From Pseudogemmobacter hezensis (lineage in GTDB: Bacteria; Pseudomonadota; Alphaproteobacteria; Rhodobacterales; Rhodobacteraceae): a stretch of 37,396 nt of DNA. This document shows positions 691 through 10,843 of this stretch, piece by piece. The position numbers were made by a program, and so were the translations under genes. The stretch covers positions 1 to 37,396 of the forward strand of contig NZ_JABJXT010000027.1 in NCBI RefSeq assembly GCF_013155295.1. Reading direction: 5' to 3'. Under the pieces are notes generated by a model that saw only the letters and a list, made by a program, of their open reading frames with translations, made no database searches and was not told the DNA's origin. Numbering within the stretch: position 1 is the first letter of the stretch; every line of letters begins with the position of its first letter.

Positions 691-2808
691 TCAGGCGTGT
701 TTCTTCTGGATTTCCAGCGACAGGTTTTCCGGAACGGCGTCGTAATGGTGGAATTCCATCGAGAACACCGCGCGGCCCGAAGACATGGAACGCAGGTTGT
801 TGATATAGCCGAACATATTCGCCAGCGGGACCATCGCGTTGATCACGTTTGCATTGCCCCGGGTGTCTTGACCCTGAACCATGCCGCGACGCGAGGTCAG
901 ATCGCCGATGATGCCGCCGGTATATTCTTCCGGGGTCACCACTTCGACTTTCATAACCGGCTCAAGCAGTTTCGCACCGGCTTTGCGCAGACCGTCACGC
1001 ATAGCCGCACGCGAAGCGATCTCGAACGCCAGAACCGACGAGTCGACGTCGTGGAAAGCACCGTCGATCAGAGCGACTTTGAAGTCGATAACCGGGAAGC
1101 CTGCCAGCGGGCCCGAGTCCATAACGGACTTGATGCCTTTTTCGACGCCGGGGATGTATTCTTTCGGAACCGCACCACCAACGATTTTCGACTCGAACGA
1201 ATAGCCTTCGCCCGGTTCGGTCGGCGAGATCACCAGCTTGACGCGTGCGAACTGACCCGTACCGCCGGTTTGCTTCTTATGCGTGTAGTCGATTTCGTAT
1301 TCCGACGAGATCGTCTCACGATAAGCCACCTGCGGCGCACCGATATTCGCCTCGACCTTGAACTCGCGACGCATACGGTCGACGAGGATGTCGAGGTGAA
1401 GTTCGCCCATGCCCTTCATGATGGTCTGGCCCGATTCCTGATCGGTCTCGACGCGGAAGGAGGGGTCTTCGGCCGCAAGGCGAGCAAGGGCGATGCCCAT
1501 TTTCTCCTGGTCGGCTTTGGTCTTCGGCTCGACGGCGATCTCGATAACCGGGACCGGGAAGGTCATGGTTTCGAGAACGACCGGGCTTGCCGGATCGCAG
1601 AGCGTATCGCCGGTGGTGGTCTCTTTCAGACCGCCAAGCGCGATGATGTCGCCAGCATAGGCCTCGGTGATTTCCTCACGCTCGATGGCGTGCATCATCA
1701 TCATACGGCCAACGCGCTCTTTGCGGCCTTTGGTCGCATTGAGCAGGCTGTCGCCCTTTTTCATCACGCCGGAATAGATCCGGGTGAAGGTCAGCGAGCC
1801 GACGAAGGGGTCGTTCATGATCTTGAACGCCAGACCCGAGAAGGGCTGCTCGTCCGAAGCGGTGCGCTCGATGTTGCGGGTCTCGGTCTCGTCGCCCGGT
1901 GCGAAGCCCATATAGGGTTTCACGTCCAGCGGCGAAGGCAGATAATCGACAACAGCGTTCAGCAGAGCCTGCACGCCTTTGTTCTTGAACGCAGAACCGC
2001 CCAGAACCGGCACGAAGGCCATCGACATGGTGCCCTTGCGGATCAGTGCGCGCAGCTCGTCCTGCGAAGGCTCTTTGCCTTCGAGGTAAGCTTCCATCGC
2101 AGCATCATCCTGCTCGACTGCCAGCTCGACGAGCGTCGCGCGGCGGGTCTCAGCTTCTTCTTTCAGCTCGTCGCGGATCGGACGGTGAACCCAGGAAGCG
2201 CCGACGTCGTCGCCTTCCCAGACCCATTCTTCCATCGTCACCAGGTCAACGATACCTTCCAGACGGTCCTCAGCGCCGATCGGGAACGCGATCGGTGCGG
2301 TGGTCGCGCCGGTGCGGTCCTTGATCATGTCGAGGCATTTCTGGAAGTCAGCGCCGATCTTGTCCATCTTGTTGACGAAGACGATGCGCGGAACGCCGTA
2401 ACGGTCGGCCTGACGCCACACCGTTTCGGTTTGCGGTTCCACACCGGCGTTACCGTCAAGCAGACAGACCGCACCATCGAGAACCGCCAGCGAACGTTCA
2501 ACTTCAATGGTGAAGTCAACGTGGCCGGGGGTGTCGATGATGTTGAAACGGTGCTTCGGCGAAGTGGGTGCCGTGCCGTCGTAGGTCTTTTCCCAGAAGG
2601 TGGTGGTCGCAGCCGAGGTGATGGTGATCCCCCGCTCCTGCTCCTGCTCCATCCAGTCCATGGTCGAGGCGCCATCATGCGTCTCGCCCATTTTGTGGTT
2701 CTTGCCGGTATAGAAAAGAATACGCTCGGTCGTGGTCGTCTTGCCAGCATCGATGTGAGCCATGATGCCGAAGTTACGATAGAGATTAAGCGGATAGTCG
2801 CGTGCCAT
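691..2808 (-). CDS. fusA: Elongation factor G
   Basis: EF-G is the GTPase that drives ribosomal translocation and, with RRF, ribosome recycling. The protein is 705 residues, the normal length. Visible motifs are the G1 loop AHIDAGKTT (residues 17-25), DTPGH (92-96) and NKMD (146-149), followed by the EF-G-specific domains II-V. It lies 9 bp after rpsG and upstream of tuf, in the usual str order. A very long open frame on the opposite strand is only a codon-bias shadow. No truncation or unusual residue was noticed. Confidence 0.98.
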
Positions 2809-6574: not shown

Positions 6575-6763
6575 GGCAAGGGCTTTCGGTTTCAGGATCG
6601 CGTTTCGATGGGCCGCACAGCGATGGGGCGCGCCCATTCGGAAAGCACACCGCGAAAATGCTGTGATCCCGGGATTTCGGGATTTGAAAGCAAGGATCGG
6701 AGTGTGCGGTCAGCGATCTGCCCCCAGATTGAGCCCAACACCGCTCAGATCGCGAGACCGCAG

Positions 6764-7882
6764 ATGACAGAGTTCAGCCCGACCCCCAGCCAGACCGCCA
6801 GCCAGACCGCCAGCCAGACGCCCGGCCAGACCGAGGCTGACCCCCGTTGGCAAAGCGTGCTGTCGCGGGACAAAAGCGCCGATGGGCAGTTTGTCTATGC
6901 CGTCAAAAGCACGGGCATCTACTGTCGTCCATCCTGCCCCTCGCGCCATGCAAAGCCGCAGAATGTGGGTTTCTTCGACACACCCGCCGAGGCCGGGGCC
7001 GCCGGTTTTCGCCCCTGCCTGCGCTGCCATCCGAACGGGCAATCCCCGGCCGGGGCGAATGCGGCCCTGGTGGCCGAGGCCTGCCGCCTTATTGAGGCCT
7101 CGGACAAGTTGCCGAAACTGGAGGAGCTGGCCCGCAAAATCGGGATGAGCCCATTCCACTTTCATCGCCAGTTCAGAAAAATCACCGGCCTGACCCCCAG
7201 GCAATGGGCGGTGACGCATCGCACACGCAAGCTGCGCGCAGAGCTTGCCGATCCGACCGAAAGCGTGACCGGCGCGATCTATGGGGCTGGCTACAACGCG
7301 AATTCCCGCTTTTATGAGAACTCATACGAAGTGCTTGGCATGACGCCGACCACATACCGCAATGGCGGCAAGGACGCCGAGATCCGCTTTGCGGTCGGTG
7401 CAACCAGCCTCGGCGCCATTCTGGTTGCGCAAAGCGACAGGGGGATCTGCGCGATCACGCTGGGCGACGACCCCGACAGGCTGGTGCGCGATCTGCAGGA
7501 CCGTTTCCCCAGGGCCGTGCTGATTGGCGGGGATGCGGATTATGAGACCCTTGTCGCGCAGGTCGTGGGCTTTGTCGAAGCGCCCGGGATCGGCCTTACG
7601 CTGCCTTTGGATATTCGCGGCACCGCCTTTCAGGAGCGGGTCTGGCAGGCGCTGCGCCAGATCCCGCCAGGTCAGACGGCCACCTATACCGATATCGCCC
7701 GCCTGATCGGCGAACCCAAAGCGGTGCGCGCCGTGGCGCAGGCTTGTGGCGCGAACAAACTTGCGGTGGCCATCCCCTGCCACCGCGTTGTCAGACATGA
7801 TGGCACACTCGCCGGTTACCGCTGGGGCGTTGAAAGGAAACGCGCACTTCTGGAAAGAGAGGCCAGGCCCCTGCCCCGCTGA
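6764..7882 (+). CDS. ada: Bifunctional Ada: DNA methyl repair protein and AraC-type activator
   Basis: Ada removes methyl groups from DNA phosphotriesters and O6-methylguanine onto its own cysteines, and when methylated activates the adaptive response. The ATG at 6764 gives 372 residues, close to the family length. An upstream start at 6608 adds unrelated sequence. The N-terminal zinc domain has Cys54, Cys58, Cys85 and Cys88 (YCRPSC and PCLRC); Cys54 matches the phosphotriester acceptor (Cys38 in E. coli). An AraC-type helix-turn-helix region follows at about 100-190. The C-terminal methyltransferase ends with PCHRVV, whose Cys339 is the O6-methylguanine acceptor. The first 24 residues are a Gln/Thr/Ser-rich repeat tail not found in the E. 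coli protein. It sits just before two more repair genes. Confidence 0.95.
   Translation: MTEFSPTPSQTASQTASQTPGQTEADPRWQSVLSRDKSADGQFVYAVKSTGIYCRPSCPSRHAKPQNVGFFDTPAEAGAAGFRPCLRCHPNGQSPAGANAALVAEACRLIEASDKLPKLEELARKIGMSPFHFHRQFRKITGLTPRQWAVTHRTRKLRAELADPTESVTGAIYGAGYNANSRFYENSYEVLGMTPTTYRNGGKDAEIRFAVGATSLGAILVAQSDRGICAITLGDDPDRLVRDLQDRFPRAVLIGGDADYETLVAQVVGFVEAPGIGLTLPLDIRGTAFQERVWQALRQIPPGQTATYTDIARLIGEPKAVRAVAQACGANKLAVAIPCHRVVRHDGTLAGYRWGVERKRALLEREARPLPR
6788..6835 (+). repeat. In-frame 12-bp tandem repeat in the ada 5' end
   Basis: Four units of AGCCAGACCGCC type (6788-6799, 6800-6811, 6812-6823 and 6824-6835, the last two diverged) encode a SQTA-like repeat in the Ada N-terminal tail. 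The period is a multiple of three, so copy-number change would keep the frame. Confidence 0.8.
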
Positions 7883-7909
7883 CCCTGTCTGACGACATGC
7901 CCCGCAAGC

Positions 7910-7951
7910 TGCCCGTAACTTTGCCCGTGATTTTGTCCGTGGCTTTGCCGG
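7910..7951. repeat. Short tandem repeat, 12 bp x 3.5
   Basis: Units 7910-7921, 7922-7933 and 7934-7945, with a partial 7946-7951, share TG(C/T)CCGTnnnTT. The array lies in the 211-bp gap between ada and the radical-SAM gene and is non-coding on the plus strand. Confidence 0.75.
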
Positions 7952-8057
7952 GTGAAACCCACCAAAGCTGCGGCGGCCTGCGTCTTGCGAGGTCGTATCC
8001 GCGACCTCATCGCACCTGCCGGGATTGCCTTTTCCCGCCGGCCTGCGAGATATGAAA

Positions 8058-8086
8058 TTGACGAACATTTCGTGAACATATAATCT
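8058..8086 (+). promoter_or_regulatory. Promoter of the radical-SAM/UdgX operon, giving a near-leaderless mRNA
   Basis: TTGACG at 8058-8063 serves as -35. As -10, either TAATCT (8081-8086, 17-bp spacer) or TATAAT (8079-8084, 15-bp spacer) fits. The predicted transcription start near 8090-8093 is at or just before the ATG at 8094, and no Shine-Dalgarno sequence precedes that ATG. The message is therefore predicted to be leaderless or nearly so. Confidence 0.65.
8063..8077 (+). promoter_or_regulatory. LexA (SOS) operator, GAAC-N7-GAAC
   Basis: GAAC at 8063-8066 and GAAC at 8074-8077 are separated by exactly seven bases. This is the reverse complement of GTTC-N7-GTTC, the direct-repeat LexA box of alphaproteobacteria. 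It lies between the -35 and -10 of the promoter above, the ideal place for repression. I infer that LexA controls the downstream repair pair. Confidence 0.7.
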
Positions 8087-8093
8087 TGCCGCC

Positions 8094-9323
8094 ATGGCAC
8101 GAACCCTTCAGGACAAACTGGCGATCCTTTCCGACGCGGCGAAATACGACGCTTCCTGCGCCTCATCTGGCGGCGAGAAGCGCGATTCCCGTGCGGGCGG
8201 CATCGGATCCTCTGGCGGCGCGGGCATCTGCCACGCCTATACACCTGACGGGCGCTGCATCAGCCTGCTGAAGATCCTGATGACCAATTTCTGCATCTTC
8301 GACTGCGCCTATTGCATCAACCGGGTATCCTCAAACGTCGAACGGGCGCGGTTTTCGGTCGAAGAGGTCGTGACGCTGACCCTGGAATTCTACCGCCGCA
8401 ACTATATCGAGGGTCTGTTCCTGTCGTCGGGCATCATCCGCTCGCCCGATCAGACCATGGCGGATATGGCGCGGATCGCGCGGGTTCTGCGTCAGGACCA
8501 CGGCTTCAAGGGCTATATCCACCTCAAGACCATCCCCGACGCCAGCCCCGAGCTGATCCGCGAGGCCGGGCTTTACGCCGACCGCCTTTCGATCAATGTC
8601 GAGCTGCCCGCCGATGCAAGCCTGCGCAAATTCGCCCCCGAAAAGCGCCCCGAGACCATTCGCTCCGCCATGGCCCAGGTCCGGCTGGAGGGAGAGGCCG
8701 CGAAAGAAAAAACCCTGACCGGCAAGCGCCCGCCCCGCTTTGCCCCCGCGGGCCAGTCGACCCAGATGATCATCGGTGCGGATGGCACGGATGACGTGAC
8801 GATCCTGCAAAGCTCGACCCGGCTTTATACCGGCTACAAGCTGCGGCGCGTCTATTACTCGGCCTTTTCGCCGATCCCGGATGCGTCCAGCGCTTTGCCT
8901 CTGGTGCAGCCGCCCTTGTTGCGCGAGCACCGGCTTTATCAGGCGGACTGGCTTTTGCGCTTTTACGGCTTCAGCGCCGAAGAGATCGCCAGCGGCACGA
9001 CAGCGGGCCATCTCGATCTTGAGATCGACCCGAAACTGGCCTGGGCGCTGCAACATCGCGGGCTTTTCCCGCTGGATGTGAACCGGGCCAGCAAGGACAT
9101 GTTGCTGCGGGTGCCGGGCTTTGGCACCCGAACGGTTGACCGGATCCTGGGCGCACGCAAGACACAGGCGCTGCGCTATGAGGATCTGACCCGCATGGGC
9201 GCGCTGATGAAGAAGGCGCGGCCCTTTATCACGGCGCCGGGCTGGTCGCCGCGCGGGCTGACCGACAGCGCCGATCTGCGCGCACGTTTTGCGCCGCCGC
9301 CGCAGCAGTTGTCGCTCTTGTGA
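8094..9323 (+). CDS. Putative DNA modification/repair radical SAM protein (UDG-linked family)
   Basis: A 409-residue radical-SAM protein of the family usually found beside UdgX-type uracil-DNA glycosylases (the TIGR03916-type family, by recall). The FeS cluster motif CX3CX2C is at Cys67, Cys71 and Cys74 (FCIFDCAYC). The C-terminus, about residues 328-355, has a ComEA-like helix-hairpin-helix, LRVPGFGTRTVDRIL, which would bind DNA. The reaction is not known; a DNA lesion or modified base is the likely substrate (inference). The stop overlaps the next gene's GTG start by 4 bp, so the two are translationally coupled. A promoter with a LexA-type operator lies immediately upstream. Confidence 0.9.
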   Translation: MARTLQDKLAILSDAAKYDASCASSGGEKRDSRAGGIGSSGGAGICHAYTPDGRCISLLKILMTNFCIFDCAYCINRVSSNVERARFSVEEVVTLTLEFYRRNYIEGLFLSSGIIRSPDQTMADMARIARVLRQDHGFKGYIHLKTIPDASPELIREAGLYADRLSINVELPADASLRKFAPEKRPETIRSAMAQVRLEGEAAKEKTLTGKRPPRFAPAGQSTQMIIGADGTDDVTILQSSTRLYTGYKLRRVYYSAFSPIPDASSALPLVQPPLLREHRLYQADWLLRFYGFSAEEIASGTTAGHLDLEIDPKLAWALQHRGLFPLDVNRASKDMLLRVPGFGTRTVDRILGARKTQALRYEDLTRMGALMKKARPFITAPGWSPRGLTDSADLRARFAPPPQQLSLL

Positions 9324-10843
9324 GCTACGCCGTCACGCTGCCGGAACGCGGGTTGCTTAATGCCTGGCGTGACGCCGCCCGTATCGCGATCAGCCATCGC
9401 ATCGCACCGGATCAGATCGACTGGAAGACCGCCGCCGATGCCGATGCCGATGCCGATAACAGCCCGACTGCGGGCGGATTGTTCGCAACCGAGGCGCTGC
9501 CATCAGCGCCCGGGCCGCATCAGGCGCAGGTGCCGCAGGCGTTTATCCGGCTGGCAGGCTCGGTGATCTGGCATTCCGCCCCCGCCCGGCTGGCGGCGCT
9601 TTATCAGGCGTTGTGGCGGCTTGATCTGCGGCAGGGCGAGCCGCTGTCACAGGCCGATCCTTTGGGGCGGCGGCTGAACCTGATGGCAAAGGCGGTCGGG
9701 CGCGACATCCACAAAATGCATGCCTTTGTGCGGTTTCGGGAAATCCCCGCGGGCCCTGACACAGCGGGCCGCCACCGCTTTGCCGCCTGGTTCGAGCCAG
9801 AGCATAACACGCTGGAGCCAGGCAGCCCCTTCTTCGCAAAGCGCTTTGCGGACATGGACTGGATGATCGCCACCCCGCGCCTGACCGCGCAGTTCATCGC
9901 AGGCAGCCTCAGCTTTCAGCCGGGCGGTGCCCGCCCCAATCTGCCCGGGCCCGATCTGTCTGAGGATGCCTCAGAAAGCCTCTGGGCCACCTATTTCGCC
10001 AATATCTTCAACCCCGCGCGGGTCAAGCTGGACGCGATGCGGTCAGAGATGCCGAAGAAATACTGGAAGAACCTGCCCGAGACGCGGCTGATCCCCGATA
10101 TGCTGAAAGATGCGGAATCCCGCGTGGCGCGGATGCATGCGGCGGCGGCCAGCACCCCGCGCCCGGGCTCCGCCCCGGTCTCGACACGTTACCGTGCGAC
10201 GATGCCGGTGGCCGCCGATCTGCCAGACACCCTGGAGGCCGCACAAAAGGCCGCGCAGCAATGCCGCCGCTGCGGCCTTTGCGAGGCGGCAACGCAAACC
10301 GTCTGGGGCGAGGGTGCAACTGACGCCCGGCTTATGCTTGTGGGCGAGCAGCCCGGCGACCAGGAAGACCTTGAGGGGCGCCCCTTCACCGGCCCGGCGG
10401 GTCAGCTGCTGCGCAGCCTTATGGCAGAGGCTGGCATCGCGCCCTCATCGGTCTGGCTGACCAATGCGGTGAAACATTTCAAATTCGTCCCACGCGGCAA
10501 AGAGCGTCTGCATCAGAACCCGAACCGCCAGGAAATCGGGGATTGCCGCTGGTGGCTGGGGCTGGAGCTGGCCTTCATCCGGCCAAAGCTGGTGGTCGCG
10601 CTTGGTGCCTCGGCCGCTTTCGCACTGACCGGGAAGGCCGCAGCTCTGGAGGACCGGCGCGGCAGGATCGAGACGGGCCTGCATGGTGGCCCGGTCCTGA
10701 TCACCTGGCACCCCGCCGCCATCCTGCGCCAGCCCGACAAAGCCGCCGCCATGGACCTCAGGGCAGCGCTGTCGACGGACCTGAGCCTGGCGCTTTCTGC
10801 CTGCGCCGATCCTTCCCGCCCCGGGAACCCCCAGGAATACTGA
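9320..10843 (+). CDS. udgX: UdgX-family uracil-DNA binding protein/glycosylase with N-terminal DUF4130-like domain
   Basis: A 507-residue fusion starting at GTG 9320. The first ~250 residues match the DUF4130-like domain commonly linked to the radical-SAM neighbour. The C-terminal part is a family-4-like uracil-DNA glycosylase of the UdgX type. The FeS cysteines begin with CRRCGLC (315-321). The active-site motif GEQPGDQED is at 342-350. The loop GKERLH places His398 where Mycobacterium smegmatis UdgX has His109, the residue that forms a covalent bond with the abasic sugar after uracil removal. It probably traps uracil lesions (inference from family). An odd (Asp-Ala)n stretch near residues 39-46 comes from a 6-bp repeat. 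Confidence 0.9.
   Translation: MSYAVTLPERGLLNAWRDAARIAISHRIAPDQIDWKTAADADADADNSPTAGGLFATEALPSAPGPHQAQVPQAFIRLAGSVIWHSAPARLAALYQALWRLDLRQGEPLSQADPLGRRLNLMAKAVGRDIHKMHAFVRFREIPAGPDTAGRHRFAAWFEPEHNTLEPGSPFFAKRFADMDWMIATPRLTAQFIAGSLSFQPGGARPNLPGPDLSEDASESLWATYFANIFNPARVKLDAMRSEMPKKYWKNLPETRLIPDMLKDAESRVARMHAAAASTPRPGSAPVSTRYRATMPVAADLPDTLEAAQKAAQQCRRCGLCEAATQTVWGEGATDARLMLVGEQPGDQEDLEGRPFTGPAGQLLRSLMAEAGIAPSSVWLTNAVKHFKFVPRGKERLHQNPNRQEIGDCRWWLGLELAFIRPKLVVALGASAAFALTGKAAALEDRRGRIETGLHGGPVLITWHPAAILRQPDKAAAMDLRAALSTDLSLALSACADPSRPGNPQEY
9434..9457 (+). repeat. 6-bp microsatellite (GCCGAT x 4) in udgX
   Basis: Four perfect GCCGAT copies encode alternating Ala and Asp in a poorly structured N-terminal stretch. 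The period keeps the reading frame. Confidence 0.85.

Follow-up and report, generated by a model that had tools for sequence, protein, structure and literature searches.

Within a 37,396-nucleotide stretch of Pseudogemmobacter hezensis DNA (contig NZ_JABJXT010000027.1, positions 1 to 37,396 of the forward strand; here called the window), we find an operon of two genes, one for a radical-SAM protein and one for a fusion of a DUF4130 domain with a UdgX-type uracil-DNA glycosylase (UDG), which is very probably regulated by LexA. A GAAC-N7-GAAC direct repeat (GAACATTTCGTGAAC) lies at 8063-8077 on the plus strand, upstream of the radical-SAM gene, and we assign it as a LexA box on the basis of the sequence and of its conservation in orthologues. 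The original prediction had proposed that this box controls the pair as an SOS module, and sequence comparisons support the proposal: an exact box precedes the orthologues in 142 of 146 distinct alphaproteobacterial upstream regions, an E. coli-type box takes its place in 17 of 21 regions from other classes, and the genome has a lexA gene that carries a box of its own. A new element is a clamp-type tail at the C terminus of the radical-SAM protein, which suggests where in the cell the module may act.

Orthologue conservation is, at the level of sequence, the decisive evidence for the box, and it contradicts a chance match. The alphaproteobacterial set comprised 151 loci (18 from class genomes, all over the cut-off, 29 from family genomes, 80 from closest relatives and 24 from phylum genomes); outside it are one fragment (L020), eleven matches below the cut-off (L021-L031), 25 family-genome rows above it and 22 alphaproteobacterial phylum-genome rows. 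The 142 exact boxes, all within about 100 nucleotides upstream, compare with 0.22 predicted from how often the pattern occurs elsewhere in these loci; 125 of them read GAAC-N7-GAAC and 17 GTTC-N7-GTTC. A reversed control pattern occurs in three of the 146 regions (L090, L111 and L176), and in the first two it overlaps a real box. The loci are akin to one another, and 146 regions do not equal 146 independent tests. A search for the box upstream of orthologues in related genomes was the check that the original prediction had itself suggested, and the box was found there, with one mismatch in the close relative L057.

CTGT-N8-ACAG is the E. coli-type LexA box. It is present in 17 of the upstream regions sampled from other classes of the phylum (21 of 29 over-cut-off orthologues, namely 20 plus L161), where arithmetic with equal base frequencies gives about 0.06 matches expected in 21 regions; none of these 17 has the GAAC repeat, and none of the 24 alphaproteobacterial loci in the same comparison (L162-L185) has CTGT-N8-ACAG. 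Because the other classes carry the E. coli-type box in place of the GAAC repeat, LexA control seems to have outlasted the switch between the two LexA motifs. In L190 and L199, two loci from one genus of another class, CTGAAGGGTTCAG or CTGAAGAGTTCAG palindromes stand 5' of the radical-SAM gene where no CTGT-N8-ACAG is found, and these are possibly a diverged LexA motif.

The genome itself (4.60 Mb in 64 contigs) shows the signs of a LexA system that uses this kind of box. GAAC-N7-GAAC occurs at 99 places genome-wide vs 55 for the reversed control, and the tighter form GAACAT-N5-GAAC at 12 vs 1. The single lexA match (C1:89780-90508; 181.5 bits, cut-off 110.95) has a box of the same kind, GAACATCGTCAGAAC, on its 5' side, and boxes also stand 5' of a uvrD/pcrA-like gene, two imuB-like genes (one recognized by Pfam in L145, the other by eye in L150) and two SRAP genes, and further upstream of a radical-SAM gene of the PA0069 family. 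For several of these genes the longest reading frame begins 5' of the box and the likely start lies 3' of it. This regulon sample covers 20 stretches with 23 of the 99 boxes, several of which look accidental, for instance those inside frames that by eye resemble clpP and a phage portal gene.

Some observations count against LexA control. Four alphaproteobacterial regions lack an exact box (L004, L057, L096 and L100) and have the repeat with two, one, one and one mismatches respectively; L057, 84% identical, belongs to the window's own clade. Four of the 21 regions from other classes (L161, L190, L199 and L204) contain neither type of box. At the recA locus the only exact box is inside the gene, with one-mismatch boxes in the presumed upstream stretch, outside the reading frame, and the evidence for a recA box is weaker than would be expected for this gene. 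Within the window, the repeat is found twice against 0.75 expected, and at least two matches arise in 15 of 100 shuffles; the second match, at 2481-2495, falls inside the EF-G gene (691-2808, minus strand). The lone window box is not significant by itself, and a strict sigma-70 consensus scan of 7880-8200, with spacers of 16-18 allowed, returned no promoter. The window taken by itself would thus leave room for a chance match in front of an operon that is constitutive or under another regulator. Set beside the comparative count and the motif swap in the other classes, that explanation is extremely improbable, and we rejected it after the count.

As the strict scan returns none, the promoter hexamers were read by eye. 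A putative -35, TTGACG (8058-8063, plus strand), has G8063 in common with the box, and a putative -10, TATAAT (8079-8084), follows at a spacing of 15, outside the range allowed in the scan, and nine nucleotides 5' of the ATG at 8094; an alternative -10, TAATCT (8081-8086), has a spacing of 17. The original prediction had placed the repeat at 8063-8077 between these elements, and its coordinates are correct. The box ends 16 nucleotides before the ATG. Because TATAAT is only nine nucleotides from the ATG, the operon mRNA is probably leaderless or nearly so, with a predicted start within a few bases of the ATG if this -10 is used. In the orthologues, the distance from the box end to the first in-frame ATG, which we took as the start codon and which is no proof of the true start, is two nucleotides in 48 of 122 distinct orthologue rows and at most seven in 86. 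In most of them the core of the box reads as a -10 (e.g. TATCAT or TATAGT), and a TTG is often found about 17 nucleotides upstream; because this core lies so close to the ATG their mRNAs are probably leaderless as well. The window belongs to another layout, found also in L038, L040, L062, L064, L067 and L069, in which ttgac abuts the box, a mostly A/T-rich stretch follows, and the ATG comes 14-16 nucleotides downstream.

There is good support for the SOS reading, which others had reached before. We take COG4277 to be the same family as TIGR03916, to which the radical-SAM protein belongs, and the SOS operon described as COG1573-COG4277 is almost certainly the same pair as the window's. In the available text of one paper, SOS control of this UDG-based pair is cited for Alphaproteobacteria (da Rocha 2008) and Verrucomicrobia (Erill 2016) (PMC8565304); since an SOS role is reported or cited there, the belief that none had been described, which accompanied the original prediction, does not hold. 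Like the window pair, that operon is a LexA-controlled two-gene module with a member of the UDG superfamily, whereas the passages that concern it contain neither the cross-linking chemistry of UdgX nor a clamp motif (PMC8565304). What the present analysis adds is the box across many alphaproteobacterial genera and the motif swap in other classes. DUF4130 beside radical-SAM and UDG genes in SOS neighbourhoods appears in part of another paper (PMC3765255), and a third, in the portion available, describes what UdgX does in the cell as largely unknown (PMC10359453). We found no paper that names both UdgX and LexA, and hence there seems to be no connection between the two literatures; 'SOS' and 'radical SAM' are absent as words from the main text of two UdgX structure papers, as are 'radical SAM' and 'uracil' from the main text of a LexA survey in D. 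shibae. We found no substrate described for the radical-SAM partner, in a literature of one paper each for COG4277 and DUF4130.

Both genes are on the plus strand, at 8094-9323 and 9320-10843, and overlap by four nucleotides. The original prediction had identified them as radical-SAM and UdgX, and TIGR03916, TIGR03915 and TIGR03914 all score above their curated cut-offs. The first encodes a 409-residue protein with a predicted radical-SAM fold that matches TIGR03916 (putative DNA modification/repair radical SAM protein) at 585 bits, against a cut-off of 343.5, and otherwise only the general PF04055. Its three CX3CX2C cysteines, C67, C71 and C74 (8292-8315), are invariant in an alignment of 43 sequences and kept in at least 98% of 145; C22, C46 and C55 (8157-8159, 8229-8231 and 8256-8258) are likewise invariant in the 43 and kept in at least 98% of the 145, and possibly form an auxiliary metal site. 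The AlphaFold model has a mean predicted local distance difference test (pLDDT) of 84, low around residues 21-50, and a predicted template modelling score (pTM) of 0.82.

The protein ends in QLSLL (residues 405-409; 9306-9320, plus strand), which on the tail alignment and the published motif we predict to bind the beta sliding clamp. The motif, as given in the available text of PMC11139829, is Q-phi-x-[L/M]-[F/L], or the same with one extra residue before the last. In its strict form, with phi as L, I, V, M or A and with its end among the last seven residues, it is present in 124 of 142 distinct radical-SAM tails, and in 112 of these it forms the very C terminus; a looser form, which was set after the tails had been seen, covers all 142. 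Neither form occurs in any of 128 UdgX tails, other open reading frames of at least 200 residues in the same loci give 5 (strict) and 12 (looser) of 1291, and shuffling the last 12 residues gives 3.0% for the strict form. All 145 aligned sequences have Q405; position 406 holds L (130) or M (15), position 408 L (139) or F (6), and position 409 F (90), L (43) or I (12). The linker that precedes the motif is rich in proline and less well conserved, and the last block of the model, at pLDDT 57, makes the tail a low-confidence segment; a clamp ligand is expected to carry its motif in a disordered or terminal segment, and QLSLL is the C terminus. A relative on a contig from a viral collection ends in QLELFG. 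The form extends to other classes, where 20 of 20 tails have Q-x-x-L-[F/L/W/I] at the end or within six residues of it (e.g. QMALW, QLSLF, QASLF and QGSLF).

These patterns make it likely that the radical-SAM protein docks on the sliding clamp. They are also open to a different explanation, in which LexA control is real and the QLSLL-type peptide, short and hydrophobic as it is, serves the contact with UdgX/DUF4130 or the stability of the fold and does not bind the clamp. Part of the variation speaks for this and against docking: 18 of the 142 tails depart from the strict motif (Ile is the last residue in 12, and six end in QLGFGF), and of the 20 tails in other classes 17 fit the pattern applied there, three have Gly at position 2 and five end in Trp. 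Trp and small residues at such positions weaken peptide binding in E. coli, whereas a terminal Ile is tolerated, according to the available text of PMC11139829. This explanation is nonetheless distinctly unlikely, given that the C-terminal pattern, a Gln that never varies and then L/M-x-L-F/L/I, equals or comes close to the published clamp motif (PMC11139829, in the part available), that it comes after a proline-rich and less conserved linker, and that its form is kept in other classes. No paper that we found places a clamp motif at the radical-SAM C terminus, in a literature mostly without subscription papers and with those on radical SAM and sliding clamps judged by title.

The second gene encodes a 507-residue fusion recognized by TIGR03915, TIGR03914 (285 bits, cut-off 189.95) and Pfam. 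The DUF4130/TIGR03915 region spans residues 91-254 by Pfam (9590-10081, plus strand, as are the features that follow) and the UdgX-type glycosylase domain residues 330-477 by Pfam (10307-10750), with an E-value of 3.3e-43 to the UdgX chain 6ail_A over residues 301-491. By alignment, motif A (GEQPG, residues 342-346; 10343-10357), the R-loop KERLH with His398 (10499-10513) and motif B (HPAAILR, residues 464-470; 10709-10729) are common to this protein and Mycobacterium smegmatis UdgX (PDB 6ail, 6ajo and others). His398 aligns with H109 of that protein, the cross-linking residue according to the portion available of PMC10359453, and the His is kept in 125 of 131 distinct proteins. The UdgX chains matched are about 205-229 residues long and have no DUF4130 part, whereas the window UdgX is fused to DUF4130 and paired with a radical-SAM gene under a LexA box. 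The AlphaFold model has a mean pLDDT of 87; its pTM of 0.57 makes the placement of DUF4130 against UdgX uncertain. Foldseek gave target TM-scores of 0.85-0.94 between the UDG domain and UdgX chains, and 48 of the 50 matches listed for the model belong to the UDG superfamily, the other two being a phage DNA polymerase and an unnamed conserved protein.

A few loci depart from this picture and speak against a constant role for UdgX in the module. Three loci of one genus (L006, L010 and L011) show no UDG part in the DNA covered here, and the cross-linking His is replaced by Gln in Gluconacetobacter liquefaciens (L064) and by Pro in Acetobacter nitrogenifigens (L069). Because some loci are without a visible UDG part or have a decayed UdgX, they suggest that the radical-SAM protein and DUF4130 are the core of the module and UdgX an addition. 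In L176 the His also fails in the alignment, and since another frame of that locus contains KQRLH, we consider a frame shift more probable than loss of the residue. At L006 (2734-3708) a LexA-boxed radical-SAM gene is followed by a DUF4130-type open reading frame of 324 residues, with about 470 nucleotides read beyond it, and a separate UDG gene further on is possible.

The persistence of a radical-SAM and a DUF4130-type gene without a UDG part in these three loci would fit a looser arrangement, in which the radical-SAM protein repairs DNA by direct reversal, as spore photoproduct lyase does, and UdgX-DUF4130 acts independently, the two having only the SOS promoter in common. We consider this rather unlikely: a UdgX match adjoins the radical-SAM gene in 127 of 128 alphaproteobacterial loci, the two genes overlap by four nucleotides in 56 of 151 pairs, and the 50 Foldseek matches listed for the radical-SAM model, which include HydE, biotin synthase and lipoyl synthase, contain no spore photoproduct lyase.

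The family is sporadic: 18 of 289 class genomes have a match over the cut-off, as do 58 of 295 family genomes and 84 of 398 phylum genomes, and it was matched in 158 of 72,556 plasmid records. In Paracoccus denitrificans PD1222, for example, both genes are annotated on a plasmid. In a FastTree phylogeny with midpoint root, the window copy groups with Rhodobacterales (Yoonia, Falsigemmobacter and Rhodobacter) and with Gluconacetobacter and Acetobacter, in a clade of nine members with local support of 0.999. The radical-SAM proteins of L064 and L069 are 83% and 81% identical to the window's and their promoters have the window-type ttgac-box-TATA layout; because these Gluconacetobacter and Acetobacter copies share that layout, the operon seems to have moved together with its operator, and at L064 and L069 the sequences suggest that the operon arrived by horizontal transfer and that its glycosylase part then decayed. 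A patchy and mobile distribution would also suit a phage-defence module that acts against uracil-containing or modified phage DNA from an SOS promoter. A clamp-type tail together with an SOS box fits housekeeping repair instead, and PADLOC gave no match for either the radical-SAM or the DUF4130-UdgX protein; we set this possibility aside as highly improbable.

Our favoured reading, a LexA-repressed and clamp-docked repair module for uracil and abasic sites, is on the whole reasonably probable. The sequence supports it through the conserved box, the overlap of the two genes, the residues of UdgX and the conserved clamp-type tail; from there we infer that LexA binds, that the tail binds the clamp and that the proteins act together, and most of all what the substrate is and in which order the steps occur. 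LexA on the direct repeat inside the promoter would block RNA polymerase, DNA damage would activate RecA and lead to cleavage of LexA and derepression of the operon, and a coupled mRNA, probably leaderless, would then yield both proteins together. The radical-SAM protein would dock on the replication sliding clamp via its QLSLL tail and so bring the module to forks and gaps, where UdgX would remove uracil and covalently cap the resulting abasic site, as proteins of the SRAP/HMCES type do. The radical-SAM and DUF4130 domains would in turn deal with the blocked site by repair or release, their chemistry being directed at the same lesion or one next to it. This division of labour among radical-SAM, DUF4130 and UdgX is doubtful in its particulars, and the cap at abasic sites, drawn by analogy, is a further point on which the reading may fail.

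Two known systems offer partial parallels. SRAP/HMCES proteins (YedK) cross-link covalently to abasic sites, are SOS-associated and are encoded here by two genes with the same kind of box, and we liken their capping to that proposed for UdgX; they are another protein family, and UdgX differs in making its own abasic site by uracil removal. Pol IV and Pol V are SOS-controlled. They are recruited to the clamp through a short motif, C-terminal in Pol IV (PMC11139829, in the part available), and the radical-SAM tail is alike, although these are polymerases and the window protein is a radical-SAM enzyme.

Three observations concern the surroundings of the module and other boxed genes. In the window, the gene immediately 5' of the module (6608-7882) encodes an ada-type methyltransferase/regulator. 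By tblastn at E 1e-20, Ada was found in no locus except the window's own, with flanks of about 1.5 or 4 kb for most alphaproteobacterial loci; as the flanks read would have shown such a neighbour, the linkage looks local, and we rejected it as a general feature. Elsewhere in the genome, two separate imuB-like/SRAP clusters, on contigs C15 (L145) and C45 (L150), have LexA-type boxes 5' of both genes in each. Also on contig C45, GAACATAAAGAGAAC (minus-strand reading) lies 33 nucleotides 5' of the longest frame of an antirestriction-protein gene (PF03230; L149:523-1014), and because it precedes this gene, a gene of a mobile element may be under LexA.

The most novel form of our proposal is SOS-induced fork protection: abasic sites that arise from uracil would be capped by UdgX, then repaired or released by the radical-SAM/DUF4130 part on the clamp. 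We put it forward as a tentative possibility. If true, it would give UdgX a physiological role, and the radical-SAM protein would be the first enzyme of its kind known to us with a clamp-binding tail, since we know of no other. A pair so far described vaguely as 'putative DNA repair' would thereby be turned into a set of testable claims about when it is made (in the SOS response), where it acts (at the replication clamp) and what UdgX may be for (the capping of abasic sites).

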